From a virus, in IMG/VR virus record IMGVR_UViG_3300025101_000228, positions 1 to 22,021 of that record: DNA of 22,021 nucleotides; one strand, written 5' to 3'. A program made the translations under genes and the position numbers. The notes beneath the pieces are model-generated. The model had not been told where the DNA came from. It worked only from the letters and a program-made list of their open reading frames with translations, and made no database searches. How positions within the stretch are numbered: the first letter of the stretch is position 1; the number at the start of each line of letters is the position of its first letter. Of the stretch, positions 6,140 through 22,021 are shown piece after piece.

Positions 6140-6281
6140 ACATCATTTCGTATTTGCCAAATTTTTTATCGTGATCTCTAGTTTTTTGTTGTAGTTGTAA
6201 TATTTTTTCTAAATTTTCTACTTTCTTTTTTAACTGTTTAGTTTCTTCCTCCTGTCTGGAGGAGTGGTTCTCCTGGTTCAT
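6138..6281 (-). CDS. 47-residue coiled-coil protein overlapping the upstream gene
   Basis: A short open frame from ATG 6281 to TAG 6138. The product is very hydrophilic: MNQENHSSRQEEE, then a helix with heptad-spaced hydrophobics (QLKKKVENLEKILQLQQK), then DHDKKFGKYEMM. It fills what would otherwise be the largest gap in the window. The first 44 bases overlap the 3' end of the Gly/Asn-linker gene in another frame, and the stop overlaps the gp17 ribosome binding site, so the three genes are packed as expected for translational coupling. No Shine-Dalgarno is obvious before the ATG, so expression may depend on readthrough by ribosomes from upstream. Coding is inferred from packing and helical amphipathicity; no function is recognised. 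A terminase accessory or assembly peptide is only a guess. Confidence 0.55.
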   Translation of the reverse strand: MNQENHSSRQEEETKQLKKKVENLEKILQLQQKTRDHDKKFGKYEMM

Positions 6282-6684
6282 AATTGGAAACTTGGTAAGA
6301 CCAGAGTTGAGCACCAGGATACACTTTTCTCACTTGATCCAGTACTTCTCTGCGTGAAGGGCGTTTGATCTGAGGGAAAAACATTTTTATCATGTAACCT
6401 TTTCCTCTCCAACCAACATATACATCTATTATATTTCCTGTTCTTCTTGGTAGCATTGTGGATTCACTCATTCCTCCACCATTACCACCACCATTAGAGC
6501 CGTTGCCATTACCTCCATTACCATTACCATTACCATTGGTTCCGTTGCCGTTACCATTTTTCTTTCCATTCTCATCACTATCTTTTTCAAGATATCCTCT
6601 ACCTCCTACATGATAACCACGAGGAATTGGTTTGCACCTTTTAGATTGATAACAATAGTATTCACCTGGAGGACACTTTTTCAT
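6238..6684 (-). CDS. Small virion-associated protein: Cys-rich start, Gly/Asn linker, basic C-terminal domain
   Basis: The 148-residue product has three parts. Residues 1-31 are a compact cysteine-containing segment, MKKCPPGEYYCYQSKRCKPI with Cys4, Cys11 and Cys17, followed by PRGYHVGGRGYL; I recall similar CPPGYYYC...CKPIP motifs in other marine phage proteins. Residues 39-71 are an almost pure Gly/Asn linker encoded by GGTAAT-like hexamers. Residues 82-148 form a folded-looking domain (NIIDVYVGWRGKGYMIKMFF, then RPSRREVLDQVRKVYPGAQL). There is no signal peptide or membrane segment. A CATAAATA late-promoter motif lies 23 bases before the ATG; the best Shine-Dalgarno candidate, AAGG, is rather far away. 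It sits in the structural block between gp16 and gp17 and overlaps the 47-codon gene. Virion location is inferred from context; no function is recognised. Confidence 0.8.
   Translation of the reverse strand: MKKCPPGEYYCYQSKRCKPIPRGYHVGGRGYLEKDSDENGKKNGNGNGTNGNGNGNGGNGNGSNGGGNGGGMSESTMLPRRTGNIIDVYVGWRGKGYMIKMFFPQIKRPSRREVLDQVRKVYPGAQLWSYQVSNYEPGEPLLQTGGRN
6247..6263. other. Short GC-rich hairpin hiding a Shine-Dalgarno-like GGAGGA
   Basis: On the minus strand TCCTCC and GGAGGA form a perfect six-pair stem with the five-base loop AGACA. It lies in the overlap between the Gly/Asn-linker gene and the 47-codon gene. No T-run follows it, so it is not a terminator. It could mask the GGAGGA from ribosomes or slow them. 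Role unproven. Confidence 0.4.
6472..6570 (-). repeat. Imperfect hexanucleotide repeat coding a Gly/Asn linker
   Basis: A degenerate array of GGTAAT/GGAAAT/GGTGGT-like units codes residues 39-71 of the Cys-rich small protein (runs such as NGNGNGNGG). The units are imperfect, so this is a low-complexity coding repeat, not CRISPR. Such tracts are prone to slippage and length change. Confidence 0.8.
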
Positions 6685-7416: not shown

Positions 7417-10400
7417 TTAACTTAGTGCTAGGATAAATGGTGTCATTTCTGAGAATAGACTCTTACTAAATGATCTTCCACTAATTGTACCAGTAGTTTG
7501 ATCAATTTGGAAGTCATCACCTATTCTAAAATTACCTGATTGGTCGGTGCTAGTGTAAACTACATTTCCACCATTTGAAGTAATTACTTCATTTGCCTGA
7601 ATAGTTACTCCACCACGTTTAGGTGTAGCAGATGCTATTTCATTTCCAGCACCAATATATTCAAAAGTATGAGAACTAGCAATAATTTTACTTTGCTGAT
7701 GGAAGAATACAGTACTTCCTACACCAACAGTATTGATCAAGTTTTCTGCAAGAGTTAACGTAGTAATTCCAGATGTTACTGGAGTTGAACTATTTATTGT
7801 GTAGTAAATTGGGGCCATACTAACACTTACACTTGCAGCGTTAGATCCCACATTAGGAGCAGAGATTGTTATATCAGGAGTTTCGGTATATTGACTACCA
7901 CTACTAATAATAGTGATAGATGCAATTGATTCTCCTTCAAGAGTAGCAAATGCTGTTGCAGTTTCTCCATTTGGCCCTGATGGTGCTTCAAAAGTAACTG
8001 TAGGAGTTGAAGTGTATCCAGTTCCTCCAGAACCTACAGTAACTGATTCTACTGATTGATATAGTTCATCAAAATAAACTATTTGTCCATCATAAGGTCT
8101 ATCTACATCAATCTTTGCTGTTCCTGCAGATGCACCTGCACCCACGTAAGTATGTGCCAGTGTAGAGATTCCTAAGTTTACAGTGAAACTAGTTGTAGAG
8201 GGAACTGATATTACTCTAAACACAAAAGGTTGTTTTTCTGGATAGTTTTTAAATCCAAAGTCACAAGAGAATCCAATATCAGCAAGACTAACTCCCATTC
8301 CCACAGAGAAAGGATGTGCTCCACTAGTCGTTACAGTTGCCTCTCCTGTGGTATGAGTATATGCAACTCCGCTTATAGTTGATGTTGTAACTCCAATATT
8401 AAGTATTACATTGTCCTGTCCTGCGGCTGCAGAGGAAGTAACAACTCCTGTATATTGAAGAGGACTCTTACCATCTGAAACTAATCCAAATGTACCAAAA
8501 CTACAGTTACTATTAGCAACATCTGCTTGTCCTCCTGCATGGCAACTAATTGCCTCATCACAACAAATCGTGAATACTGATACTAACTGTGCATAACCTT
8601 GGTTAGTTACTGCAACTCCTACTCCACCCTGATTGTATTGAGTGAAAGCATCCACGTTCATTGTCTTTAGTAATCTAGCCTGATTACCATCAATTCTTAT
8701 TCCTACACCAGTCGTTGTATTACTTGTGCAGTTTTGAATATATGGACCTTTCCATTTACCACCACCTACATTTTCTGCAATCTCACTCGTTGGGAATCCA
8801 ACTGCAGCTGCAGATCCCACATGACCAGTAAAGGTCATATTTGCTAACTTAACTCCTTTTCTTACAGAGAAGATATCTTTATGAGCAGCACTTCCACTTA
8901 CGTTAACCGATCTTTGATCATCACCTACAATTGATACGTTAGCAGGAACTTGAATAGGATTTGCCTCCTGATAATTTCCAGAAAGAACCTTAATGGTAGA
9001 ACCAGATGTAGCAACTCCAACTGCACCAGCAATTGTTAATTTAGCATTGTCGATAGATGTTCCATTATTAGAATCATTACCATCCTTGGCAACATAAAAA
9101 ACATTAGGTGCAGAGTTAATACCAGATGCACCCGCTTCAATGGTTACATTGTCACCAATGGTTACGCTTGAATTTGAAATAACAACATCTTCATCACCGA
9201 TAGTAACCTTATTGGTAGTACCATCAATTGTTACAGATGCTCGACCTATGGTTAGGATGCCAATTACACGAGCATCTCCATCTACCACAAGGGTAGTATC
9301 ACCAGCTCCAATCGTAACTGTTCCAATACCACTAGGAGGAACAACAGTAACAATACCTGTGTTTACACTTAAACCATTATTAAGTATTTGAACACCTTGC
9401 TGGAACGTACCAATACCAAGAACATCTTGATGCGTTACATCTTGATAGGTTATCGTTCCACCAACAGTTACATTACCACTGAATGTGGCAGCAATACCAG
9501 CAAGAAAATCAGTAGTTACCTTACTACTAAATGTAGCAGCAATACCAGATATAAAATCAGTACCACCAACACCAGTAGAACTTCCACCTAAAGCCGTGCT
9601 TGCAATACCAACCCATTGAGTGCCATCATAAATTAGAAGTTTATTAGTTCCTGTAGTTCTATCAAAATCAACATCATCAAGATCATGAATGAACGCAGCA
9701 CCACCGCCACCGATAGTATATAATTGCTGTTCAACTCTGTTTACAAAAAGTCTATAGTTTGAAGCTAAATCTTGAAGAGTTGCAAATTTTTGATTAATAG
9801 GAGTAAGAGGATCATCACCTTGTTTAAGATCAGGATCAGGAGTTAAAGGTCTATCGTTATAGATCTCTGTAAGATCTTGTTGCTGTCCTTTTAGTTCCTC
9901 AACAATTTTATAGAGTTCTGCAATATTGGTAGTTTGATCTGTATATTTTTTATCAAGACCATATAAACTTTTCTTTAACTCTGTAATATTATCATCATAA
10001 TCTTTAGGTTCAGGAAGATTGGATATTTCCTCTTTTAATCCATCTAAGTAAGACTTAAGAGTTTCATTTGACTCATTGCTTTTACTATAAGATTCATCAA
10101 TCTGTTTCTCAATGTTTTGCTTTGTCTCATTGAGTTTACTTAATATACTCTTCTTTAACTTTCTATCATCATCTTTAAACGATCTTTGATATTCCCATAT
10201 CTTAATCGCAGACTCTCTTAGTTCCTCATATATCTTATCTTTGGCTTTCTTTAATTCTTCAATCTCTACTCTTTGTTCAAAATCTTTAAGATCTATATTT
10301 TCAGTTAATTCTTCAAGATCAGAATCAAATTTGGTTTTAAGATCTTTTATATGATCTCCTACCTTAACAAAATCATCATCAATTACACTAAAGGTTTTTC

Positions 10401-11031
10401 CAATCCATGAAAAATCAGGGACTTCATTAACCTCATTTACCCATTTAGGGAAAGTAGGAATCTGATCCCTGACCTGATCAATGGCTTCACATATCGCTTC
10501 AATCTCTCCATCATAATACTTTGGTTCTGGAAGATTTTTAATCTTCTCTTCAATTGTATTTAATTGTTCATCATAGTATTTTACTTCAGGAAGGTTCTTA
10601 ACTTCCTCTCTTACTAAATCAATTTGCTCACATATTGTTTCTACTTCTGCGTCATAATATCTTACCTCAGGAACTTCTGGAATACTTTCTTTTAATTGTT
10701 CTAAGTGTTCTGAAAGTTCCTTAAGTTCATTATCGTAAGATTTTATTTCTGGAATGTCAGGAATACTTTCCCTAACATCATTAACCATACGAACCAATTC
10801 ACCCCATTGAGGTGCTGGAATTACATCAGTAACTTCTATCTTTGGATTTCCGTGGGCATCATCAATTATTGTTACTTCTTCTTCCTCTTTTATCTCTTCT
10901 TCTTTTTGAACAAATGCTTCTACTGATGGTAATTCTTGCTCAGTTATTAAATCTTCAACTGAAGGCAATTCATCAGAATTATCTTTATAGTCTTCTATAG
11001 ACGGCAAATTTTCAATATTGTCTTCCGACAT
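7417..11031 (-). CDS. Long fibre-like virion protein: coiled-coil rod plus beta-helix
   Basis: The 1204-residue product has a clear modular layout. Residues 9-45 hold three LPS(I/V)E(D/A) repeats in an acidic tail. Residues 75-440 are a charged coiled coil with recurring (L/V)PExxYYD breaks (about 94, 121, 148, 168 and 339). Residues 446-475 form a linker domain (FIHDLDDVDFDRTTGTNKLL). Residues 490-521 are two 16-residue repeats, and 550-640 are short VTIG/VTID beta-helix-like repeats. Residues 645-860 resemble the pectate-lyase-like beta-helix of phage tailspikes, opening FYVAKDGNDSNNGTS, then IKVLSGNYQEANPIQVPANV. Two GY..TP repeats lie at 1000-1060, and the end QSGNFRIGDDFQIDQTTGTI is one I recall from cyanophage structural proteins. 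No enzyme residues can be assigned. A trimeric fibre or spike attached by the acidic end is inferred. A GATAAATA motif overlaps the gp16 stop upstream. Confidence 0.9.
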   Translation of the reverse strand: MSEDNIENLPSIEDYKDNSDELPSVEDLITEQELPSVEAFVQKEEEIKEEEEVTIIDDAHGNPKIEVTDVIPAPQWGELVRMVNDVRESIPDIPEIKSYDNELKELSEHLEQLKESIPEVPEVRYYDAEVETICEQIDLVREEVKNLPEVKYYDEQLNTIEEKIKNLPEPKYYDGEIEAICEAIDQVRDQIPTFPKWVNEVNEVPDFSWIGKTFSVIDDDFVKVGDHIKDLKTKFDSDLEELTENIDLKDFEQRVEIEELKKAKDKIYEELRESAIKIWEYQRSFKDDDRKLKKSILSKLNETKQNIEKQIDESYSKSNESNETLKSYLDGLKEEISNLPEPKDYDDNITELKKSLYGLDKKYTDQTTNIAELYKIVEELKGQQQDLTEIYNDRPLTPDPDLKQGDDPLTPINQKFATLQDLASNYRLFVNRVEQQLYTIGGGGAAFIHDLDDVDFDRTTGTNKLLIYDGTQWVGIASTALGGSSTGVGGTDFISGIAATFSSKVTTDFLAGIAATFSGNVTVGGTITYQDVTHQDVLGIGTFQQGVQILNNGLSVNTGIVTVVPPSGIGTVTIGAGDTTLVVDGDARVIGILTIGRASVTIDGTTNKVTIGDEDVVISNSSVTIGDNVTIEAGASGINSAPNVFYVAKDGNDSNNGTSIDNAKLTIAGAVGVATSGSTIKVLSGNYQEANPIQVPANVSIVGDDQRSVNVSGSAAHKDIFSVRKGVKLANMTFTGHVGSAAAVGFPTSEIAENVGGGKWKGPYIQNCTSNTTTGVGIRIDGNQARLLKTMNVDAFTQYNQGGVGVAVTNQGYAQLVSVFTICCDEAISCHAGGQADVANSNCSFGTFGLVSDGKSPLQYTGVVTSSAAAGQDNVILNIGVTTSTISGVAYTHTTGEATVTTSGAHPFSVGMGVSLADIGFSCDFGFKNYPEKQPFVFRVISVPSTTSFTVNLGISTLAHTYVGAGASAGTAKIDVDRPYDGQIVYFDELYQSVESVTVGSGGTGYTSTPTVTFEAPSGPNGETATAFATLEGESIASITIISSGSQYTETPDITISAPNVGSNAASVSVSMAPIYYTINSSTPVTSGITTLTLAENLINTVGVGSTVFFHQQSKIIASSHTFEYIGAGNEIASATPKRGGVTIQANEVITSNGGNVVYTSTDQSGNFRIGDDFQIDQTTGTISGRSFSKSLFSEMTPFILALS
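7852..8049 (-). repeat. GY..TP beta-repeat module in the fibre-like protein
   Basis: Residues about 995-1060 carry two copies of a beta unit, VTVGSGGTGYTSTPTVTF and ITIISSGSQYTETPDITI, each followed by an alanine-rich strand. The same unit occurs in gp14 and in the giant structural protein of this window. Confidence 0.7.
9466..9561 (-). repeat. Two tandem 48-bp coding repeats
   Basis: Two adjacent 48-base units (9466-9513 and 9514-9561) differ at about seven positions and encode TDFISGIAATFSSKVT and TDFLAGIAATFSGNVT in the fibre-like protein. They look like a recent in-frame duplication of one shaft repeat. Confidence 0.8.
10432..10758 (-). repeat. PExxYYD coiled-coil repeats in the fibre-like protein
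   Basis: Residues about 92-200 contain four repeats of 20 to 28 residues, each opening with a proline-containing break (IPEIKSYD, VPEVRYYD, LPEVKYYD, LPEPKYYD) followed by a short acidic helix. A fifth copy (LPEPKDYD) lies at residues 339-346 (about 9994-10017). Conservation is at protein more than DNA level. Confidence 0.7.
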
Positions 11032-11073: not shown

Positions 11074-11493
11074 TTATTTATCGACTTCAGGAAGTCCAGT
11101 TTTTATAAGTTTAGCTAACTCTGCTGTGGATCCAACAAAGAGTGCATTATTAACTGTATTAGGGCCTTTGGTTTGTTGTTCCTCATTTACATCTTTAAGT
11201 TTTTTCTGAAGATCCATCAACTTATCAGTGGCATCAGAAACACTCTTAATTAATTGACCTGCTACCTCATACGCTCTCGGCATGTCGCTCTCTTGAGCAA
11301 GTTCAAGAATTCCGTCAATTGCTTCTTGTCCTTTTTCAATGATAGAATATAGATTGCCTCTTGTATATTCATAATCTCTAGTAATGTCGTCTTTAGTAAT
11401 TCTATCAGGTTTTTGTTCAGGTGTAATCCCCACCTTTTCTGTTTCTACCACTTCAGTTTCGGAAATGTTGAAAGCATCATCTAGTTTTTTCAT
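11074..11493 (-). CDS. 16: Terminase small subunit gp16
   Basis: DNA-recognition partner of gp17 in packaging. The product has 139 residues (T4 gp16: 164) and is mostly helical. Family-like features are the region DITRDYEYTRGNLYSIIEKG, the helix EAIDGILELAQESDMPRAYE with the conserved PRAYEV, then VAGQLIKSVSDATDKLMDLQ followed by KKLKDV, matching the central coiled-coil helices of T4-type small terminases. The C-terminus ELAKLIKTGLPEVDK is typical of the cyanophage form. The ATG is five bases after the gp15 stop, with no good Shine-Dalgarno, so it is probably coupled to gp15. Its last codons double as a late-promoter motif for the next gene. The usual partner gene gp17 is not adjacent; it lies about 4.9 kb downstream beyond the fibre block. 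Confidence 0.9.
   Translation of the reverse strand: MKKLDDAFNISETEVVETEKVGITPEQKPDRITKDDITRDYEYTRGNLYSIIEKGQEAIDGILELAQESDMPRAYEVAGQLIKSVSDATDKLMDLQKKLKDVNEEQQTKGPNTVNNALFVGSTAELAKLIKTGLPEVDK
11075..11082 (-). promoter_or_regulatory. Putative T4-type late promoter for the fibre block
   Basis: The minus strand reads GATAAATA, where GAT AAA TAA are the last two codons and stop of gp16. It lies 44 bases before the ATG of the 1204-residue fibre-like gene and would leave a leader of roughly 35-40 bases. Because the motif is also coding, chance cannot be excluded. Confidence 0.5.
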
Positions 11494-11498
11494 TGTTT

Positions 11499-12518
11499 TT
11501 AATCAAAAGAACCGTCGAATCCAAAGTCGTCACCAACTTCGATTAAAGCATTCGTAGTAGCAGTAACGAGATTTACTCCAGCACCAGCAACGTGAGCAGT
11601 AGGAGTAGTGCCATCTGCTCCTCTGTTAACAAAGAGTTTGTTGGTATCTGTAGCGTCCTTCTTATCAACATACATAGACTCATTATCTATGATTACAAAT
11701 GTATTTTCAGTAATACCAGAGGAATCATTAACTTGAATCATATTTCCATCTAAACCAATATCAACACTAAGATTAGTTGTTACATTACTATCATAAGCCT
11801 TTGTAGCACGAGGTTCGACAGAGTAAGTAACATCTCTGCTTGGAGTCTTGGTATATCCACCAGCAATGTATCCAATAGTTGCCTTCTTGATAAGATCCTT
11901 GTCTGCACTTGCTTTGGAACCAACAGGACCAAATAGGTATGTTTTTGCAGTAAATCTAAATGTATAAATTAATGATCTACGAGTTGTAAAATCTCCCTCA
12001 TAATCATCTTCCATTGTAATATTTTCAATCACAACAGGAATATCTCTTTTCTCTCCAATAGTGCTTACTAGATCAACACTTAAATTATATGCAGGTTGAA
12101 AGTAAGGTAATATCTGTTCTACAATCTGAAGCATGTCATCATTTAACTTAGTAAAAACAGAAAGTTCAAAAGACATATTATAAGGAACAGGCATAAAAGT
12201 TTTTCTAATGGCTGTTGCTACTCCTACCGTTTCTGATTTAAATGTCTGAGTGGTTGTTACTTTTCTAGATCCATCATACTGCAAACCAACAAACTCAAAT
12301 GACATTCTAGGTAATGATATTTGAGTTGCTTTATTAAGATCAGGAGATTGTTGCAACCTTGCTAAAAACTTTTGAGTAGGCCCATATGCAAGAGGAACTT
12401 TAATAACACTTGAAACATCACCATCAGAATCATCATGCTTGATTTCTATTCCATTAAAAAGGGTTCCAAACGAAATAATCGTTCGTCTTAATATTTCGTG
12501 GTAATAATACTCAAACAT
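11499..12518 (-). CDS. 15: Tail completion / proximal sheath stabilisation protein gp15
   Basis: gp15 forms a hexameric ring at the head-proximal end of the tail and joins it to the gp13-gp14 neck. The product has 339 residues (T4 gp15: 272). The conserved core is MFEYYYHEILRRTIISFGTL, VPLAYGPTQKFLARLQQSPD, then LPRMSFEF, PVPYNMSFELSVFTKLNDDM and QIVEQILPYFQPAYNLSVDL, ending in the AKTYLFGP strand near residue 197. Residues about 250-319 look like an extra beta domain (DIGLDGNMIQVNDSSGI, IIDNESMYVDKKD, VNRGADGTTPTAH), followed by the acidic end DDFGFDGSFD. This accounts for the greater length. A CTAAATA motif overlapping the gp14 stop lies 22 bases upstream of the ATG, and AGG stands about nine bases before it. 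Confidence 0.95.
   Translation of the reverse strand: MFEYYYHEILRRTIISFGTLFNGIEIKHDDSDGDVSSVIKVPLAYGPTQKFLARLQQSPDLNKATQISLPRMSFEFVGLQYDGSRKVTTTQTFKSETVGVATAIRKTFMPVPYNMSFELSVFTKLNDDMLQIVEQILPYFQPAYNLSVDLVSTIGEKRDIPVVIENITMEDDYEGDFTTRRSLIYTFRFTAKTYLFGPVGSKASADKDLIKKATIGYIAGGYTKTPSRDVTYSVEPRATKAYDSNVTTNLSVDIGLDGNMIQVNDSSGITENTFVIIDNESMYVDKKDATDTNKLFVNRGADGTTPTAHVAGAGVNLVTATTNALIEVGDDFGFDGSFD
11562..11771 (-). other. Extra beta module in gp15
   Basis: Coding for residues about 250-319 of gp15. The pattern IQVNDSSGI - IDNE(S)MYV - VNRGADGTTPTAH is a small module also visible in degenerate form in the giant structural protein (about 16410-16632, TVDSATNFD - IGEEILSYE - SIDSTT). T4 gp15 is shorter by about this length. 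Confidence 0.55.
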
Positions 12519-12539: not shown

Positions 12540-12546
12540 TATTTAG
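12540..12546 (-). promoter_or_regulatory. Putative late promoter (CTAAATA form) for gp15
   Basis: The minus strand reads CTAAATA and continues TAATATAC; the TAA inside it is the stop codon of gp14 (12543-12545). It lies 22 bases before the gp15 ATG. CTAAATA differs from the T4 consensus TATAAATA in its first bases, so the call is weaker than for the NATAAATA sites. Confidence 0.45.
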
Positions 12547-13937
12547 GGTGTTCCGAAAGGATTCTTTTCACTGAAATCTAGAATGTCATCTGCTGCATTT
12601 TCAATCTCTAGATTAGATGGATATTCATCAACTGTATTGTCTGTTTGTTCAATTTTTAATTGATAAACCGCACCACTCTCATTACCTGTAATATTTTCAC
12701 CCATTACAAACTCTCCTGTTGAATTAGAAATTACTAATTCTCCAGATACAGCATTCCATGTCTTCACAAGGGCAGTTATACCACTGGAGGAACCAGTTAC
12801 TGTTTCATTATCAATGTAAGTCCCTTCTCCTAACATATAAGGAGTTCCGATAGTAATGGTAGGTGCAACAGTATATCCAGCACCAGCATGTGTGACAAAT
12901 ACATTAGATATGGTTCCCGCAGAACTTACGACTGCAATAGCAGTAGCAGTTGTTCCAATACCTGGAGAACTGAATGAAACAGAAGGTGCAGTGGTATATC
13001 CAGAACCACCACTTGATAGAGTCACAACTCCAACTACATTGTCAGATATTCTAGTGGTTGCAGCAGCACCCACACCAAGATCATCTCCAGTTGGTAAAAT
13101 GACAATACCAGGATTATCAGTGTAATCTCTACCTGGATTCGTGACGTAAATACCTTGAACCTTTTCTCCAATATCTGTACCATCACAATTAATTAATCCA
13201 GACATAAGGGTGGCAATACCGACAGCCGTTCCACCAGCAGTAGGGGAAGATGATATTGCTACCGTAGGTGCAGAAAGATATCTTTCACCTCTATTAGTTA
13301 CAATAATTTGATTAACACCACCACTGGTTATAATACCAGCAAAGGCAGTAGCAGTGGTTCCTGCAGCCACCAAGGTAAGCGTTCTAAGATTAAAGTCAGT
13401 ATCGAATGTATCATCAATCTCTTCAATACCAGTATCCAATATCTCGTCTTCTGCTCTGAAGAGTTGACAGGTAAGTGTATAAACGTAATTTTTTCTTAAC
13501 TGGTAGAATGGTTTTTCATGTTCTACAAATTTAATTTCAAATAACCTATCACCTAATGGAAAATAGATGAGATCTCCTTCCTTAGGTCTGGTAGATAATT
13601 CTACGTTTGGTAAATTTTCAATTAATGGACTAATGTAATTTTCAAATCTTTCTTTTGATATAGTTACAGTTAGTTCATTTTCTGCCTGTATTCCAAACTT
13701 GGAAAGCATCACACTGTTATCATTATATCCATCAAAATTTTCTACATATGCCTCAATGGGATATGAATAATTAAAATCGGATGATATTACCTCTTTGATA
13801 ACAGTATCAGTCTTTGCATATTGACGAGGAAGATAAAACACTTCCACCCCATACATTCTTAACTGTTCATTAATAAGATCCTGAACTAAACTCTGTTCAC
13901 CAGAAGTTCCTTGGATAAAAAAAGGATTTAATGCCAT
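12543..13937 (-). CDS. 14: Neck protein gp14 with a large beta-repeat insertion
   Basis: gp14 joins gp13 and gp15 in the neck after DNA packaging. The product has 464 residues (T4 gp14: 256). Residues 1-180 are the canonical protein: MALNPFFIQGTSGEQSLVQD, then MYGVEVFYLPRQYAKTDTVI, DNSVMLSKFGIQAENELTVT, GDLIYFPLGDRLFEIKFVEH and KPFYQLRKNYVYTLTCQLFR. Residues 439-464 (YPSNLEIENAADDILDFSEK, then NPFGTP) are the canonical end. Between them about 250 residues of repeated GxxYxxxP beta units are inserted: RGERYLSAPTVAI (216), PGRDYTDNPGIVI (268), GGSGYTTAPSVSF (310), AGAGYTVAPTITI (351), then two GETITG-like units. The ATG shares its A with the gp13 stop (TAATG), implying coupled translation. The family is secure; the function of the insertion is unknown. 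Confidence 0.95.
   Translation of the reverse strand: MALNPFFIQGTSGEQSLVQDLINEQLRMYGVEVFYLPRQYAKTDTVIKEVISSDFNYSYPIEAYVENFDGYNDNSVMLSKFGIQAENELTVTISKERFENYISPLIENLPNVELSTRPKEGDLIYFPLGDRLFEIKFVEHEKPFYQLRKNYVYTLTCQLFRAEDEILDTGIEEIDDTFDTDFNLRTLTLVAAGTTATAFAGIITSGGVNQIIVTNRGERYLSAPTVAISSSPTAGGTAVGIATLMSGLINCDGTDIGEKVQGIYVTNPGRDYTDNPGIVILPTGDDLGVGAAATTRISDNVVGVVTLSSGGSGYTTAPSVSFSSPGIGTTATAIAVVSSAGTISNVFVTHAGAGYTVAPTITIGTPYMLGEGTYIDNETVTGSSSGITALVKTWNAVSGELVISNSTGEFVMGENITGNESGAVYQLKIEQTDNTVDEYPSNLEIENAADDILDFSEKNPFGTP
12639..13385 (-). repeat. Beta-repeat insertion inside gp14
   Basis: Codes residues about 185-433. Four GxxYxxxPxVxI units of varying length (about 42-52 residues apart) are followed by two TVTGSSSGITALV / ENITGNESGAVYQL units. 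Recognisable gp14 sequence resumes after it, so it is in frame and internal rather than a C-terminal fusion. Confidence 0.75.
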
Positions 13938-14782
13938 TAGCCTATCATATCCAGAGGTGGTAATTCATAAGTATTGGACATCATGTCTCTAATAATTTCC
14001 AGATCTTTCATTCCATCCTCATAAATGGCTCTACCATCTAGTTCTACTCCACCAGGTAATTTTACTCCTTGGAATTTCAATAAATTTTGTCCCCATTGTC
14101 TTTTGAGGAGAGCAGTTGTATATCTCTTTAAGAATGAATCATTCCAAACTCTTACATAATCATTAGCATCTATTGTTCTAAAGCAATCTATTACTAGATA
14201 ATCACCTGCAGTTACTTCACTCCAAGAAATATCTAGATACAATCTATCTTGCCGTTGATTAAATCTGAATTGTTTTTGTGTAGTTAATGCAAACTCCAAG
14301 TCAGACAAGTATGTTCTTGTCATATTATAGGTGAGCATTTCCATTGCTCCAAAGAAGTAAATATCATTTAAAAATAACTGATATTTAATACTAAACATAC
14401 CACTTGACATTGACTGTGATCCGTCAAAGTGAAATACTTTTTCTATTCCAATAACTGAGGGTGGCACTTGTAGGTAGTTACTATTTTCTTCCCAATCAAA
14501 CTGCATTGTAGCACCATCAATGGTTGCTTCTGCTGTGGTTGTTGTTATTCCTAATACTCCGTCTTGACCAGGCCCTTTTCCTCTATCAATATCATCCTGT
14601 GTTATTTGGTATTTTAAATAGGTTCTCATCACACCATCAAAATGCCTTTCATAAAAATATTGAAGAGCATCATCAATTATATCATCTACTTGTTCATCGG
14701 CAACATTAATTTCAAGCACAGGTGCTCCTAGTTGCCTTAAACAATAATCTTTTAATTGAGATCTACTTGCTGGTTGTGCCAT
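13937..14782 (-). CDS. 13: Neck protein gp13
   Basis: gp13 binds the portal after packaging and, with gp14, closes the head and provides the tail attachment site. The product has 281 residues (T4 gp13: 309). Family hallmarks: MAQPASRSQLKDYCLRQLGA followed by PVLEINVADEQVDDIIDDAL, QYFYERHFDGVMRTYLKYQI, IGIEKVFHFDGS, QLFLNDIYFFGAMEMLTYNM, LALTTQKQFRFNQRQDRLYL-like segment at about 190-205, and the C-terminal RQWGQNLLKFQGVKLPGGVE. The chosen ATG at 14782 has AGGA about ten bases upstream and gives the usual cyanophage N-terminus. A CTAAATA motif overlapping the previous stop lies just upstream. The stop is fused to the gp14 start (TAATG). The call is secure from sequence and position. Confidence 0.95.
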   Translation of the reverse strand: MAQPASRSQLKDYCLRQLGAPVLEINVADEQVDDIIDDALQYFYERHFDGVMRTYLKYQITQDDIDRGKGPGQDGVLGITTTTAEATIDGATMQFDWEENSNYLQVPPSVIGIEKVFHFDGSQSMSSGMFSIKYQLFLNDIYFFGAMEMLTYNMTRTYLSDLEFALTTQKQFRFNQRQDRLYLDISWSEVTAGDYLVIDCFRTIDANDYVRVWNDSFLKRYTTALLKRQWGQNLLKFQGVKLPGGVELDGRAIYEDGMKDLEIIRDMMSNTYELPPLDMIG

Positions 14783-15412: not shown

Positions 15413-18400
15413 TTATGCTAGTGCAAGGACTCTTAGATTCCTCATTCTAGGAGGATAACTTTGACTTGTTGAAGTCATTACTATTTTAATTCTATAGAAC
15501 TTGAATGAAGGAAGATCATTTATACTAAATGCATACTCCTTAAATTCATTGCTTGGTGTCAATATTTCTTCATTTGTAGATGGGAAAACGAATGTATCTG
15601 ATCTTCCATCATTATCAGCCACATCAATTATTTGACCATTCCCATCAATATTACTAAATCCTGGAAAAGGCATGTAGACTGGATCAGTTCCAGCAGAATT
15701 GCTTATTGCATAGAATGCCCTGATATCAGCATCAGTGTTTATGTATGCATCAGAAATAATCTTCAAGGTGGTAGCAGAATTTTCTAATTGGAATTCTTTA
15801 GAAAGATATTGGAAAGCATTTGGATCATCAAATGCACTGTTCACTCTATTATCAGTTACATAGTTTGAAATAGGTGCATTAACTCTGTTAGAGGAGAAAA
15901 TAACACTCATTCTTTGAGTATCAATTATTGGAGATAATTTTGAATCCGTGGTAGAGAAAGTAACTCTCATATTTAATGATTTATTACCAGGCAAAGTAGT
16001 TAAGTTATTAGTTTGATTAATATCAGAAGCTACGATACGAGGAGTTGACATATAATTATTTTGTCCAATAGTTACTCCTTCAAATCCTTTATCTACGTAA
16101 GGAATTTCATTTCCATCTAGACTTGCACCAGTTACAGTTCTTACTTCAGATGTAAGATTTGTTCCTTGTAATGTAAGATTTTGAATCTGTGGATTAATAA
16201 TTTCAAAAGGAATATTTTGAGTAGCAGTTACATTGTCACCACCAGCTGATTTAGTTTGACCCATATAAAGAATAGGGAAACTTGCACCCGTAGATCTTCC
16301 AAGACCACTTGATCCCATATCAAGTTTAATATTATAAGAATCAAAGGTGATGGAGTTAGCAATTGATACGTTTCCTAAGTAATGAGTTTTATTGATTCTC
16401 CTTAAGGAAACACCACCCAATTCATATTTGTAAACTGGAGTGCCAGAAAGATAATTCTTGGTGGTTGTAGAATCAATAGATCTTGAGGTAATACCTATGG
16501 TAGTTCCATCAGCACTTTCATAAGAAAGAATTTCTTCTCCTATCATCAAGTAACCATAGTTAGTGGTTCCTACACCTACATTTTCAAACTGATCAAAGTT
16601 AGTAGCACTATCAACTGTTATGTCACCTGTGGTGGATGTATCAAGATCATTAACAAGTTTTGTAGGAATGAGATCACTTTGTGCCTTAGAAACAGTTACA
16701 TAGTTATCAGTGAAATACATTCCATGATTCTTATGATTAACAACGATATTCAATCCACTGTTCACTACATCGATATCAGAAATTGTTACATTTCCACCAA
16801 CGTTATTAGCTCCATTCAGATCAGTTGTAAGACCTGTGTTATTAATATACCTAACAGTATTTCCTGTTCCTGTAATAAAGTCTCCTTGAACATTATCAAG
16901 AATTAATTGAGATGTATTTGCAATCGAAACTACAGAGAGTCTAGCGTTTAATCCTAATGAGTTATTACCAATTGTTCCTATTCCCAGAACATCACCTGGA
17001 ACATATCCTGTACCACCTGAACCAACAATAAAGGAGGAGATGGTTGCTGCAACCGCTACACCATTAGATATAGTTATGTCTGCCACAGCATCATTTCCAG
17101 CAGCCGTAACATTTGTTAGAGGAACTTGATTAAATTGGAAAGTGCCTGAAATAGGTGTATAACCAATACCTGCATTGATAATATTTAAAGTTCCTGTTGC
17201 AATACCTGCATTACCAACATAAGTACCTGTTGCATTACTTCCATGTTGAAGGACTGTGTTTCCAACAGTAAGATCAGTATCATTTAAAGTAGAACCAATT
17301 CCCACCTTGATTTTTCTTCCTGTTAATTGGAGTGGATCTGAAAGTAAATGAGCAATTTGCTTATTACCAATTGATAACTCAGGATTATAAAGTTCTATAG
17401 ATCCTGTGCTTGCAAAATCTGCTCTATAAAGATTGTATTTAAGATCTTCCCACTGACTTGGTTCCCATGTAGATCCATTTTGTGATTTAAATAGAGATCC
17501 TAAAGTTGGTTGTTGAGATACAAATGTTCCTGATATTAAATCAACCTCACCCACTCTGGAGATAAAGACTGAATACTGAGAAGAATCAGAAAGAAGAACC
17601 ATACAGTACTCAATACCACCCTCCAAATATACAGGAGCCTTAAAGGTAAATGTTGTACCAATAGATCCATCATTAGAAATAGTAATCTGGGATGGAGAAA
17701 GATTAACTTCAGAGAATGGAATTACCTTTGTAGTTGGTAATCCATTTTGCATTGTTCTTAATTGGAACGTAACAGGTAACTCATTCTCATCTACAGTCGC
17801 AAAAAATGCTTCACAACTAGTTAAGAAAACACCTGTAGATTCCTCAACAAAGAATGATTGAGATAAAGGATCTCTATTAACAGTTTGTATGAGAGTTCTA
17901 TTGGTTTGTGTTGTTTGAGTTCTCTGATCAGTAATAGCTTCGACTGAAACACTAGCATTTCTTACAGAAACAATATCTTCTTGAACTGTTTCTAAAATAC
18001 CTGTAGATGAGAAGGTTTGGTCAGAAATACTTGTTGCAGCATTTCTATCATTAGATGCATTATTAATTAATGAAAGTGTTTTATTTCCAGTTTCAAATCT
18101 TGGATTACTAGAAATATTTGGATTAGGAATGAAAAGACTTCCTACTATATTTGATCCAAGATCAGATATTAATCGAACATTGGAAATAGTTGCTTGAGCA
18201 CCACTGGTTCCACCTATCAATATCATATCTTGCTCTACCCATCCCCAATATGTTCCTTGAGGTTCATTTGCTAATGAGAAGGTATCAATATTTAAAGTAG
18301 AAGAAGTTGTTGAATAACTGCTTGGAACTATATTAGATCCATAAGGACTTGTACCATAAGTTTTGGTTGGTGCATTATATGGTCCTTCTAGGTGATTGGA

Positions 18401-21400
18401 TTGAGCAGCTCTAAATCTAATAGAAGAATGAGCATCATCATTGGTAATAGGTAATACACCTGTTGGTCGAGTTGTTCCTGTAATAGTTTCTCCAACTTGG
18501 AAAGTTCCCGATATCATATTGATCTCTAACAACTTAGGAACAGCATAAGCAGTTACATCTCTTCCATCTAAGAATGCATAATGTCTTGTAGAAGGTTTAA
18601 CTCTTGATCCTACAAATTGAACATTCCTTGATCTCATGAAGGAGATTAAATCTCTACTTACGAGTCTATCTCCTTGTGATTCTTGATCAAATTGTTCTGT
18701 AACTATTCTTCTAGTTCCTGTGCGAATCTGATCAGTGACACTAAAGGTAGTTCTCCAAAGTTGATTTCCTTGCCACTCATCTCTGGTTTGTATATTAGCA
18801 GGTCTAGGATCTTGATTTACTCCAGCCCAAATTTCTTCCCAAGAATTCCACACAACAGAACCAAATCCACTTTGAGGATCTCCTCCAAACATATCAGTTA
18901 AATCTTGAACCGATTGAGTAAAGTTACCTTCAACATTTATGATATTAGCTTCAAGTCTTTCGGTATCAACCCAGTTATCAGAAGCAGGAGTTAAATCTAT
19001 TCTCCCTCCCCAAAAACTTATTATGAAAGGTGTTACACTTTCAGTTCTAGTTGCTTGAACTTGTTGTAAATATTCAACTTCATTATAACTTAGACTTACA
19101 ATATCTCCTGTTTTTCTAATATTAGTTCCTTGAGGAGAAGCGAAAGCCAAATCAGCGTTTGCTGGTGCATTCTCAACAGGCCCCATCATTAAATCTAATG
19201 ACGTGGTAAAATGTTTTGGTCTTAGTTCACTGAGTTTAATATCAATACTATTCTTATATTCAACAAGATTTGCCTGTGCAAGGAATGAAGTAAAGTTATC
19301 GACAAAGAATCCTGATTTAAATCTATTGATTCCATTTTGATCAGGTAAGAATAAACTAGCAGTATCTGCTTCCAGTAATGAAAGGGTAGTATAATACTCA
19401 AGATTTTTAATCCTATTCTCAAGTCGGCCAATATCCGACATCGTATATCTCTTATATTGGAAGAAATTCAAAGAAACATCAGACGTATTATAGAGATAGG
19501 CAGGTAAAGAGGCAACAGCAATCTTTAATGCATCATCAGTTGTTCCTGGTTCTTCAGGTTGTTCGGAAGGAACTCCTGTTTTTACTTGGAAACTACCATC
19601 TTTGGTAAGATAAATTGCATCCACTCTTCCAAGATACCATGAAAAATCAGTAATGATGGTTTCATCTGATGCTAAAATGTTGGCTGCTGAATTACCTGAA
19701 GCATTAAATGTTCTTCCCAAAAATTCTAGAGGAGATCTTACACTTTCAGCTACAGTATAATCAGAAACTCTAGGTCTAATATCAATTAAATCAGTATTTC
19801 GGATACCATTTACTGCTTGAATCTCAGTAGAATAGTTAAAAGTAGAGTAAGAATCTACAGTTGTAATATCTCCATCATCAGTTGATTGATAATAACCATT
19901 TGAGAAGTAAATTTTTATCTTTTTATTAGGTGCTTTCGCATCAGATTTTCTTCTAATGATAGAATAATTATAAAAATCTTCTTTTTGACCATTTTCACCG
20001 TCAAAACTAGACGTAATATCAAAACTAGATGCGTTTACGGTAGTTATTACACCTTCAATTTGAGATTCTTCAAATACAACTGTCTCTCCTTCCTTAAAAT
20101 TAATCTCATTTTGAGGAATAAATGTAATTTGAGAGTTAGTTACTGATTCTGCTAATAATCCACATGCATTACTTGTTCTTCCTTTAACTTTTTCTCCTAT
20201 TGTAAGATCAGCAGTCTTTCCAGTAGGCCCTGTAAGGGAATCTAATGTCAAAGTTGGAGCAGATGGATCAGAAGTAGTTGCAGATTCGTAAACTTTATGT
20301 ATTGTTATGGCATCAGGAACATTCAAAGATATTTCTTCATCTTGAACTCTTGTTCCAAAAGGATAATTACCAAATGTTAATCCATCATTCGCAGTTAAAG
20401 TTGTAATACCAGATGCTTCATTAGTAGATTTATCAACTAATAAGGTATTAACTCGATTTCTTATTTTGACTTTGGACTTAGGCTTAAGTTTTTTGAGGGT
20501 AGTAACAAGAACTGCATCATCATTTCCACCTAAACCATAAATTTGAAGTTGATTAGACGCTGCATTTATTTGAACTTTATCACTTGTCAGAACTTCGGTG
20601 GTTCCATCACTTCTTTGTAAGAAATATCTCTCTACTGTAAATGGCAAAAATGTTTCATTAGTTCCTGCATCAAGAGCAGTTGCAAGTTGACCATCTGTGA
20701 TGTTTACATTTTGAGTCTTTCTAATGACTAATGAAGCATCTGTAAGATCTACATTAGCAACATTATTTTTGGGAAGTTGAGTATAGAAAGAAACATCTCT
20801 TGCTTTTTGAAGATCTGCTCCTACAACTGCAAGGTCGGAAACTTGAAGTAATGCAGAAGGTAATTGTCCTGCTGCAACTCCAGTAACGGTGGTAACACCA
20901 CTGATGTTTATATGACTTGCTCCAACACTTACAACAGAACCAAGAACGGGATCAACACTGTTATTACCACTATATCTAACTAAATTTCCTGTCTTTATTT
21001 GGCCTGGAAAATTAGGACTGGTGCTTCTGATTGTACTAATACTTACAGCAGCAGTGGTATTAAAAGCAGTAATGGTAGCAACACCAATTGAGATGATTGG
21101 AGTTTGAATAGTATCTGCAGAGAATGTCTGTGCAGCACCCACTGTATTCATGTCTGGCCCGTTTGTATTACCAAAAACGGATCTTATGTCGGAAATACCG
21201 TAATTAGTCACTGCAACAGCAACTCTGGTATTTTCTACACCATCTATAATAAAGTTTTCATTCTTAATAAAGTCTCCTTTTACATCATATACTGTAACAG
21301 CAACACCAGATGAAACAGGAGATTTTATAAATGCACTTGCACCACTAAATTTTCCTTTTATACGACTAGGAACAGTTAATGTAATGGGTTCATTTAAAGT

Positions 21401-22021
21401 TATCTCTGTTACTGTTTGGATGTCATAAAGGGTAAGATCCCATTCATTTATATTTTGATTACTTCTATCATATGATCCTGATTCTAAATCAAAATCATAT
21501 ACTCTTGCCAATCCTATTTCCTTACCTGCAGGAAGAGTGGCTGCCGTTCCTACTCTTGTATCTCTAAGACTTAAAACATAAGTATTACCAATACCTATTT
21601 GAGGACTTCCATATGCATTATTTAATTTTAAAGTTGCACCAGTATTATAGTTTATTCCCTGATCTTCGAGAGTCGCAGTTGTTCTTGGTTTTTCAAAATC
21701 AAGATATGTTGAACTGATAGTCTCTACATCATATCCTTTTACAAACGCTCTACCTGGAGAAATTTGATAAAGTCCAAGATTATCGGAAGGAATTAATCCA
21801 CCATATGTTAATTGATTGGGATTAAATACACCATTATTCCCTTGGTAATTATCTAAAGATTCTTTTACGCCAACACCAAAAGGTTTGACATAATAATCAC
21901 CAGATTCTGCATATGTCCTTCTGGCTAACTCATCTTGTAGGATATTATAATCAGTTGTAGTAGTTTGATTTTTTAAAATACCATTTTCTACAGTCGCTAA
22001 TTGAACAAAATTATTATCATC
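15413..22021 (-). CDS. Giant virion structural protein, DUF4815-like (partial, 5' end outside window)
   Basis: The frame is open from the right edge to TAA 15413, at least 2202 codons. A TTG at 21511 is not the start: conserved sequence continues upstream in frame, with QLATVENGILKN, DYNILQDELARRTYAESGDY, QISPGRAFVKGYDVETISST. The N-terminal part resembles the DUF4815 family of T4-like cyanophage structural proteins. Landmarks toward the C-terminus: GRVDAIYLTKDGSF (about 19595-19640), FWGGRIDLTPASDNWVDTER (about 18960-19020), TRHYAFLDGRDVTAYAVPKL (about 18530-18590), FFVEESTGVFLTSCEAFFAT (about 17800-17860), LGSLFKSQNGSTWEPSQWED (about 17440-17505), and the end RMRNLRVLALA. GY..P and ITG beta units lie at about 16970-17190. 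There are no enzyme motifs. It is probably a baseplate or distal tail component; the position is inferred from order and family recollection. Confidence 0.9.
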   Translation of the reverse strand, partial: DDNNFVQLATVENGILKNQTTTTDYNILQDELARRTYAESGDYYVKPFGVGVKESLDNYQGNNGVFNPNQLTYGGLIPSDNLGLYQISPGRAFVKGYDVETISSTYLDFEKPRTTATLEDQGINYNTGATLKLNNAYGSPQIGIGNTYVLSLRDTRVGTAATLPAGKEIGLARVYDFDLESGSYDRSNQNINEWDLTLYDIQTVTEITLNEPITLTVPSRIKGKFSGASAFIKSPVSSGVAVTVYDVKGDFIKNENFIIDGVENTRVAVAVTNYGISDIRSVFGNTNGPDMNTVGAAQTFSADTIQTPIISIGVATITAFNTTAAVSISTIRSTSPNFPGQIKTGNLVRYSGNNSVDPVLGSVVSVGASHINISGVTTVTGVAAGQLPSALLQVSDLAVVGADLQKARDVSFYTQLPKNNVANVDLTDASLVIRKTQNVNITDGQLATALDAGTNETFLPFTVERYFLQRSDGTTEVLTSDKVQINAASNQLQIYGLGGNDDAVLVTTLKKLKPKSKVKIRNRVNTLLVDKSTNEASGITTLTANDGLTFGNYPFGTRVQDEEISLNVPDAITIHKVYESATTSDPSAPTLTLDSLTGPTGKTADLTIGEKVKGRTSNACGLLAESVTNSQITFIPQNEINFKEGETVVFEESQIEGVITTVNASSFDITSSFDGENGQKEDFYNYSIIRRKSDAKAPNKKIKIYFSNGYYQSTDDGDITTVDSYSTFNYSTEIQAVNGIRNTDLIDIRPRVSDYTVAESVRSPLEFLGRTFNASGNSAANILASDETIITDFSWYLGRVDAIYLTKDGSFQVKTGVPSEQPEEPGTTDDALKIAVASLPAYLYNTSDVSLNFFQYKRYTMSDIGRLENRIKNLEYYTTLSLLEADTASLFLPDQNGINRFKSGFFVDNFTSFLAQANLVEYKNSIDIKLSELRPKHFTTSLDLMMGPVENAPANADLAFASPQGTNIRKTGDIVSLSYNEVEYLQQVQATRTESVTPFIISFWGGRIDLTPASDNWVDTERLEANIINVEGNFTQSVQDLTDMFGGDPQSGFGSVVWNSWEEIWAGVNQDPRPANIQTRDEWQGNQLWRTTFSVTDQIRTGTRRIVTEQFDQESQGDRLVSRDLISFMRSRNVQFVGSRVKPSTRHYAFLDGRDVTAYAVPKLLEINMISGTFQVGETITGTTRPTGVLPITNDDAHSSIRFRAAQSNHLEGPYNAPTKTYGTSPYGSNIVPSSYSTTSSTLNIDTFSLANEPQGTYWGWVEQDMILIGGTSGAQATISNVRLISDLGSNIVGSLFIPNPNISSNPRFETGNKTLSLINNASNDRNAATSISDQTFSSTGILETVQEDIVSVRNASVSVEAITDQRTQTTQTNRTLIQTVNRDPLSQSFFVEESTGVFLTSCEAFFATVDENELPVTFQLRTMQNGLPTTKVIPFSEVNLSPSQITISNDGSIGTTFTFKAPVYLEGGIEYCMVLLSDSSQYSVFISRVGEVDLISGTFVSQQPTLGSLFKSQNGSTWEPSQWEDLKYNLYRADFASTGSIELYNPELSIGNKQIAHLLSDPLQLTGRKIKVGIGSTLNDTDLTVGNTVLQHGSNATGTYVGNAGIATGTLNIINAGIGYTPISGTFQFNQVPLTNVTAAGNDAVADITISNGVAVAATISSFIVGSGGTGYVPGDVLGIGTIGNNSLGLNARLSVVSIANTSQLILDNVQGDFITGTGNTVRYINNTGLTTDLNGANNVGGNVTISDIDVVNSGLNIVVNHKNHGMYFTDNYVTVSKAQSDLIPTKLVNDLDTSTTGDITVDSATNFDQFENVGVGTTNYGYLMIGEEILSYESADGTTIGITSRSIDSTTTKNYLSGTPVYKYELGGVSLRRINKTHYLGNVSIANSITFDSYNIKLDMGSSGLGRSTGASFPILYMGQTKSAGGDNVTATQNIPFEIINPQIQNLTLQGTNLTSEVRTVTGASLDGNEIPYVDKGFEGVTIGQNNYMSTPRIVASDINQTNNLTTLPGNKSLNMRVTFSTTDSKLSPIIDTQRMSVIFSSNRVNAPISNYVTDNRVNSAFDDPNAFQYLSKEFQLENSATTLKIISDAYINTDADIRAFYAISNSAGTDPVYMPFPGFSNIDGNGQIIDVADNDGRSDTFVFPSTNEEILTPSNEFKEYAFSINDLPSFKFYRIKIVMTSTSQSYPPRMRNLRVLALA
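16970..17190 (-). repeat. GY-type beta-repeat units in the giant structural protein
   Basis: Two units, LNIINAGIGYTPISGTFQF and FIVGSGGTGYVPGDVLGIG, are diverged copies of the GxGYxxxP module found in gp14 and in the fibre-like protein of this window. Confidence 0.55.

Follow-up and report, generated by a model that had tools for sequence, protein, structure and literature searches.

The window, the whole 22,021-nucleotide stretch of viral DNA that we analysed, contains on its minus strand a single open reading frame of 464 residues (Table 1) whose product is the T4 gp14, or head-closure Hc2, protein of a marine T4-like phage. Residues 3 to 171 match the Pfam family T4_neck-protein (PF11649, E 5e-30), and among PHROG families the top match is 460, "head closure Hc2" (E 7e-131). 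In the PDB, T4 gp14 (9mkb, 9lu4) provided the only clear matches by sequence. The gene is flanked by those for gp13 (ORF 13937-14782, minus strand; phrog_211, Ad2) and gp15 (ORF 11499-12518, minus strand; T4-gp15_tss), and the small terminase gene, gp16, lies on the same strand at 11074-11493. Two further minus-strand frames of the window were noticed. ORF 6238-6684 encodes 148 residues with a Cys-bearing N terminus and a long Gly/Asn-rich stretch. ORF 15413-21511 encodes 2032 residues that match DUF4815 and PHROG 358 (function there: unknown), with some ITG- or GxGY-like stretches visible by eye.

Table 1. Features of the gp14 gene and a related repeat copy in the window
Feature	Position	Strand	Remarks
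gp14 (neck protein, head closure Hc2)	12543..13937	-	464 aa, stop included; T4 gp14 structures are the best Foldseek matches
gp14 core, residues 1-171 (stopper ring part)	13425..13937	-	Pfam T4_neck-protein; T4 gp14 (PDB) by sequence and fold
Linker, residues 172-181	13395..13424	-	pLDDT <50
First strand of C-terminal beta module, residues 182-191	13365..13394	-	Alignable to short gp14s; model strand 185-190
Insertion proper, residues ~192-371, GxGY-type repeats	12825..13364	-	Missing in gp14s of 291-308 aa; all-beta in the model, block-mean pLDDT 76-92; borders approximate
Repeat motif 1, residues 217-228	13254..13289	-	Strict pattern
Repeat motif 2, residues 269-280	13098..13133	-	Strict pattern
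Repeat motif 3, residues 311-322	12972..13007	-	Strict pattern
Repeat motif 4, residues 352-363	12849..12884	-	Strict pattern
ITG-type beta module, residues 372-433	12639..12824	-	Common to short cyanophage gp14s, not part of the insertion
C-terminal arm, residues 434-464	12546..12638	-	Conserved in marine gp14s; role by analogy with the T4 arm touching gp15
Same kind of repeat in the 1204-aa fibre-like ORF 7417-11031	7846..8052	-	42% identity to gp14 residues 302-369, E 6e-7

Repeats and borders of the insert

The original prediction placed in this protein, between two canonical gp14 ends, an insertion of about 250 residues (~185-433) made of GxxYxxxPxVxI units and two ITG-type units. The repeat units are real, since the strict pattern G..Y...P.[VI].[IFV] occurs four times, and 100,000 shuffles of residues 185-433 yielded 99,858 sequences without the motif, 142 with one and none with more. 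The two ITG motifs are also present (residues 377-386 and 413-422). A profile built from 64 aligned window-type gp14 proteins matched five short gp14s (Syn1, S-SZBM1, P-TIM40, S-CAM1 and S-SSM5; 291-308 aa) in two pieces, extending from 1-9 to 175-190 and from 353-362 to 458, the middle being absent. Because the ITG module and the arm were both matched in these short, repeat-free cyanophage proteins, they belong to the ordinary marine gp14. Because the short proteins match at both ends only, the insertion proper is confined to residues ~192-371, with borders set by alignment. The predicted insertion is thus retained for its repeats, lost for its ITG part (~372-433) and shortened to ~180 residues. 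Among the matches listed, the gp14s of Pelagibacter phage Mosig (272 aa) and of a Klebsiella T4-like phage (258 aa) were matched in the core only. The C terminus is canonical with respect to marine relatives but not to T4, since the match with T4 gp14 stops near residue 168 and leaves the ITG module and the repeats unmatched. The statement that the protein is nearly doubled relative to T4 gp14 is fair (464 versus 256 residues in 9mkb).

Variation and history of gp14 among relatives

Among 668 records, 666 had a match to the core and 635 a complete gp14 frame, three of these frames being fragments. The 635 frames correspond to 506 distinct proteins, some isolates having been entered twice. Since the loci were collected by eight similarity scans started from selected queries, class counts should not be read as prevalences. 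Complete frames ranged from 258 to 1109 residues and clustered at 258-275, 291-308, 372-393, 442-492, 544-564, 644-663, 748-767, 857, 1021-1022 and 1109 aa. The frames of L048, L492 and L625 stop early or oddly (167, 367 and 567 aa, respectively); they were excluded as fragments and are likely to reflect frameshifts or assembly errors. Strict repeats were found in none of the 240 non-fragment proteins shorter than 320 residues and in 390 of the 392 longer ones, the strict motif being missing in the other two. Named phages covered much of this range: Syn1 and S-PM2 (292 aa each), S-SSM5 (308), Syn9 and S-MbCM100 (390 each), P-HM1 (442), P-SSM2 (470), S-SM2 (481), S-MbCM6 (486), S-SKS1 (491), S-CAM9 (657), S-SSM7 (762) and Sf-FS3 (763). 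The annotation of Syn9 lists its gp14 as a structural component of the virion. By a loose motif, GxGY units numbered 2 in S-MbCM100, 9 in S-CAM9 and up to 13 in L554. No repeats were found in the gp14 of six viable marine phages (Syn1, S-SZBM1, P-TIM40, S-CAM1, S-SSM5 and S-PM2).

At the position of the insert, relatives have nothing, more or fewer units, or a laminin-G-like domain. In the S-MbCM group, the repeats are located one hairpin further on, within the ITG module. FG-GAP_2 repeats, a beta-propeller signature, occupy the S-MbCM-type position in two gp14s (L415, 7 stretches, E 5e-77; L417, 6 stretches, E 2e-69). Laminin_G_3 was detected between GxGY units of Sf-FS3 (E 3e-7, above the cut-off) and, just below the cut-off, of S-SSM7 (E 8e-6), and the laminin-G stretch has invariant columns common to 28 aligned S-SSM7 relatives chosen by length. 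Inspection by eye showed that another loop of the ITG module is extended in L541 (544 aa) and L536 (564 aa), and that L582 (1022 aa) and L554 (1109 aa) have many GxGY units together with a segment resembling a laminin-G domain; Pfam did not recognise that segment. A recognisable lectin-type domain was found only in other gp14s, such as those of Sf-FS3 and S-SSM7, and a Pfam search of the window protein (E up to 1) gave neither a Laminin_G nor an FG-GAP match. The block of extra domains in gp14 is swappable: some relatives have none, and in others it is several times as large as the basic protein.

The original prediction had proposed that presence of the insertion in every gp14 of the clade would mark a long-standing family feature. 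A tree built from the gp14 core only (77 rows; a quick method whose support values are not bootstrap-based), on which class labels are based on length and simple motifs, required nine changes for eight gp14 states. All window-type, laminin-G and long forms on the tree fell within one 40-row group (support 85, not starred) with no short gp14 inside. Repeats were present in 73 of the 74 complete gp14s retrieved with the window protein, a full-length query that favours repeat-bearing proteins, and the 74th was a broken 167-aa frame. Since no insert-free relative was found there, the insert looks old in the clade of the window; it is absent in other marine gp14s, so that the long-standing character applies to that clade only. 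The alignment of window-type proteins (A1) was chosen by length (440-500 aa) and is uninformative on the universality of the insert.

An insert of the S-MbCM type was also found beside Syn1 on the core tree (L181 with Syn1, support 98), far from the main group. In this lineage, L181 to L183, the core is Syn1-like and the insert S-MbCM-like. Informative sites of L181 were distributed between Syn1 and S-MbCM as 59:0 in the core (3 neither) and 4:7 in the module (5 neither); the C-terminal end was mixed (13:7), its aligned last stretch following Syn1. Comparison of core and module by Fisher's test gave p values of 2.8e-7, 6.5e-6 and 1.5e-6 for L181 to L183, respectively. L181 was 41% identical to S-MbCM100 over the core, 60% over the middle part and 67% over the end. 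Since Syn1 itself is identical to S-MbCM100 at 13-14 of 20 residues in two ITG windows, the case for exchange rests on the insert, absent in Syn1, and on few informative module sites. At the level of sequence, the L181-L183 lineage shows an exchange of the module that spared the core and the C-terminal end.

Sequence change is faster in the insert than in the core. In the ten window-clade pairs, dN/dS was 0.083-0.216 for residues 185-370 versus 0.030-0.130 for the core and was higher for the insert in every pair, by a factor of ~1.4 to 3.8 (~1.4-5 across all sets). Mean pairwise identity in this clade was 0.74 for the core, 0.58 for the repeats, 0.50 for the ITG module and 0.62 for the arm. 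In the class B set (338 non-independent pairs with core dS of 0.1-0.8, analysed with our own Nei-Gojobori script), mean dN/mean dS was 0.033 for the core, 0.019 for the first part of the module, 0.162 for the insert, 0.136 for the second part and 0.069 for the arm. The insert exceeded the core in 315 of these pairs, and dN exceeded dS in the insert in six, five of which are listed, with very few changes. Judged by these ratios, the insert is under purifying selection that appears relaxed or diversified relative to the core. In one cyanophage lineage, gp14 is among the genes with a McDonald-Kreitman signal, the number of such signals being, according to the authors, indistinguishable from the false-positive rate (PMC5112629, excerpt).

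Modules of the repeat type also occur in other virion-type frames, with 4 to 20 profile matches, gp14 included, in each of 18 marine records and one match in the Klebsiella record. With the same modules elsewhere in these phages, nothing points to a job specific to the neck. The insert could have arisen by drift: GxGY units, which are common in virion genes of these phages, would be duplicated or recombined into a gp14 loop that accommodates them, and would have little specific function. The abundance of matches in marine records, the copy in the fibre-like gene of the window itself, the exchange in L181-L183 and the viability of repeat-free phages all fit this reading. It is nonetheless unlikely, since the insert has been kept in the window clade (73 of 74 complete relatives) and is under purifying selection there (dN/dS of 0.08-0.22 in ten pairs).

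Predicted structure and position at the neck

AlphaFold2 (64 sequences) predicted residues 181-430 as all-beta with block-mean pLDDT values of 75-92, in agreement with the beta nature originally ascribed to the insertion. The core of the model was poor (pTM 0.47), so that the model does not indicate how the insert is seated on the ring. Prediction of the laminin-G class (alignment A2, 28 sequences) reached a mean pLDDT of 30 and was left out. The low-confidence model core resembled T4 gp14, with a Foldseek E value of 9e-8 and VIA Z scores of 9.2-9.6 to 9lu4-9lu7 (9.6 to 9lu5_M over 133 residues, rmsd 4.8). The first five Foldseek matches were T4 neck entries, the gp14 naming being derived from chains of 9mkb and 9lu4. 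The repeat block had no convincing Foldseek match in the PDB, all five matches at E up to 0.001 being T4 gp14 chains, and the best 50 of 1084 BFVD matches were neck and other phage proteins with low TM scores. Model residues 178-437 weakly resembled domain 3 barrels of EF-Tu and aIF2gamma, with Z scores of 5.3-5.9 over 61-72 non-contiguous residues, the telling Z score of the tool being ~8. This resemblance is only suggestive of a single barrel, formed in the model by the strand preceding the insert and the ITG strands, from which the repeats would be looped out.

In T4, gp14 is the first genome gate, and the gp13 tunnel is 56-44 angstroms wide (PMC12270204, excerpt). An insert located in the lumen could act as an additional gate, for example by replacing the host Hfq plug of T4 assembly intermediates. 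By arithmetic with assumed densities, six inserts of 180 residues would occupy ~144,000 cubic angstroms, equivalent to ~58 angstroms of a 56-angstrom-wide tunnel, and the residues that the 1109-aa form has beyond Syn1 would take up ~265 angstroms of it. The six inserts would fill the channel, and the 1109-aa forms cannot fit. The insert also follows the core and does not lie in the stopper loop, which comprises residues 89-112 in T4 (PMC12270204, excerpt). A luminal gate is therefore highly improbable. Given a volume that the DNA channel cannot take, the insert most probably juts out from the neck close to where gp14 meets gp15. The projecting decoration originally envisaged is supported by indirect evidence: the insert is absent in some relatives, was exchanged in one lineage, is too large for the channel and is predicted to be all-beta behind a low-confidence linker. 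Neither a structure nor microscopy of the neck was found for any gp14 that bears the repeats.

Several observations concern the neighbours of gp14. Residues ~248-330 of the window gp15 form an optional stretch, present in some relatives only, before the conserved C-terminal DDFGF end. In a first sample, gp15 lengths were 328-342 aa in 70 of 71 class A phages, 354-362 aa in all 64 of the laminin-G class and 261-269 aa in all 72 with a short ITG-type gp14. Coupled growth of gp14 and gp15, strong in that sample, broke down on wider sampling, in which gp14 classes were again assigned by length and simple motifs: the extra gp15 stretch was present in 53 of 148 repeat-free ITG-type phages, and gp15 was short in 26 of 177 class A phages. 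The gp13 proteins of S-CAM9 (L093, 373 aa) and S-8S53 (L102, 372 aa), compared with 264-297 aa in most others, may carry an extra domain too. In S-MbCM100 (L089, KF156340.1), the annotated gp15 has 117 residues and is followed by a gap before gp16, perhaps because of a frameshift or sequencing error. In S-SKS1 (L425), the 800 bases that separate gp14 from the small terminase, where gp15 would be expected, contain no annotated gene.

The extra beta domains could instead serve as a mechanical brace that fastens gp14 to gp15 and to the upper end of the sheath and so stabilises the connection of head and tail, with no binding outside the virion. The module adjoins the arm, and in T4, gp14 residues 178-256 contact gp15, the arm touching gp15 residues 203-245 (PMC12270204, excerpt). 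An optional stretch before the conserved end is also a property of gp15, and the collar of phage Milano crosslinks the sheath to the neck (PMC10491603, excerpt). These points leave the brace a tentative possibility that we doubt, since the gp15 stretch is independent of the gp14 class in the wider sample, propeller and lectin-like inserts would be odd for a clamp, and the insert evolves faster than the core.

We infer that the window gp14 forms a hexamer whose inserts occupy an outward position and have a contact function. The protein would be a normal head-closure (stopper) protein with a C-terminal beta module acting as a platform for extra domains; in the clade of the window, ~180 residues of GxGY beta repeats would be held in one loop of this module. 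If gp14 is hexameric, as its homology with the T4 protein implies, the six copies would surround the neck with a knobbed outer collar at the head-tail join, adjoining the C-terminal arm, the presumed counterpart of the T4 arm that binds gp15. The likeliest job of this collar would be surface decoration, providing weak and adaptable contact with the outside (cell-surface glycan, other fibres or particles) through exchangeable modules. The lectin- and propeller-type domains located in the same C-terminal half of other gp14s count in favour of decoration, whereas the viability of marine phages with a repeat-free gp14 and the similar modules in other virion-type frames count against it. We consider it moderately probable that the C-terminal module is a domain platform and that the insert is an outward neck decoration making adaptable contact.

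The usual view of gp14 is that of a core gene encoding a conserved plug. Our analysis suggests that in these viruses the neck also serves as an outer surface that can change, in addition to its role as a plug. Should the C-terminal half of gp14 in marine T4-like phages act as an acceptor of domains, the neck would be an overlooked variable surface; this would also offer a structural lead for the reported selection signal of cyanophage gp14, itself possibly a false positive (PMC5112629, excerpt). Among the open-licence papers listed, none described a long or domain-bearing cyanophage gp14.

Comparison with known neck systems

The core of the window protein is similar to T4 gp14 (9mkb, 9lu4-9lu7) both by sequence (E 1e-24) and by fold, and the gp13 and gp15 neighbours are present in the window. 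The short gp14s of marine phages (Syn1, S-SZBM1 and P-TIM40; 291-292 aa) share the core, the ITG module and the C-terminal arm but lack the GxGY repeats. T4 fibritin (wac), which forms the whiskers and collar, is likewise a neck appendage, but it is a separate trimeric protein bound to gp13, unlike the insert (PMC12270204, excerpt). The window gp14 has no match to the Fibritin C-terminal family (PF07921). Membership among fibritin-like whiskers was rejected, and the proposed whisker-like character does not hold in the T4 sense, which refers to a different protein and family.

Fibritin_C was absent in all 19 marine T4-like records (18 cyanophages and one Pelagibacter phage; some records lack a family name) and present in the single Klebsiella record. 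wac is reported as missing in cyanomyoviruses, the same source mentioning a whiskered cyanomyovirus from St Kilda (PMC2984593, excerpt). Identification of S-SKS1, which has a 491-aa gp14, as the St Kilda phage is unconfirmed, its record giving only North Atlantic. The absence of fibritin is compatible with, but does not demonstrate, a takeover of its role by gp14. The gp14 module might, for example, be a docking site that anchors another neck or tail fibre, such as one of the giant fibre-like proteins, in place of fibritin. Besides the distribution of Fibritin_C, this is consistent with the existence of very long open frames bearing the same modules and with S-PM2, which displays no collar in cryo-EM (PMC2984593, excerpt) and has a short gp14. 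Docking is nevertheless quite unlikely: very long module-bearing frames also occur in phages with a short gp14 (S-SZBM1, S-SSM5 and P-TIM40), and T4 fibritin binds gp13, not gp14 (PMC12270204, excerpt). A broader extension of the decoration reading, speculative and unlikely as it stands, is that the head-closure ring is an exchangeable display platform replacing the lost fibritin whiskers, with six outward GxGY, lectin-like or propeller appendages swapped by recombination to tune adsorption.

Appendages of the neck in other phages bear on the decoration that we favour, and those of Lactococcus phages and of Milano are precedents for it. The neck fibre of the cyanophage A-1(L) has a distal carbohydrate-binding module that showed no binding to host cells (PMC10966104, excerpt), which counts against the decoration with adaptable binding proposed for gp14. 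The repeats of the window are part of gp14 itself. The neck passage structure of Lactococcus phages is a separate protein and not the head-closure ring. It is a hot spot of neck diversity with swapped domains, some of which are carbohydrate-binding (PMC10684548, excerpt). The collar protein gp13 of Milano, a separate protein as well, forms pentadecameric rings around the neck, and its D domain is a neck-decorating beta domain similar to glycan-interacting proteins (PMC10491603, excerpt).
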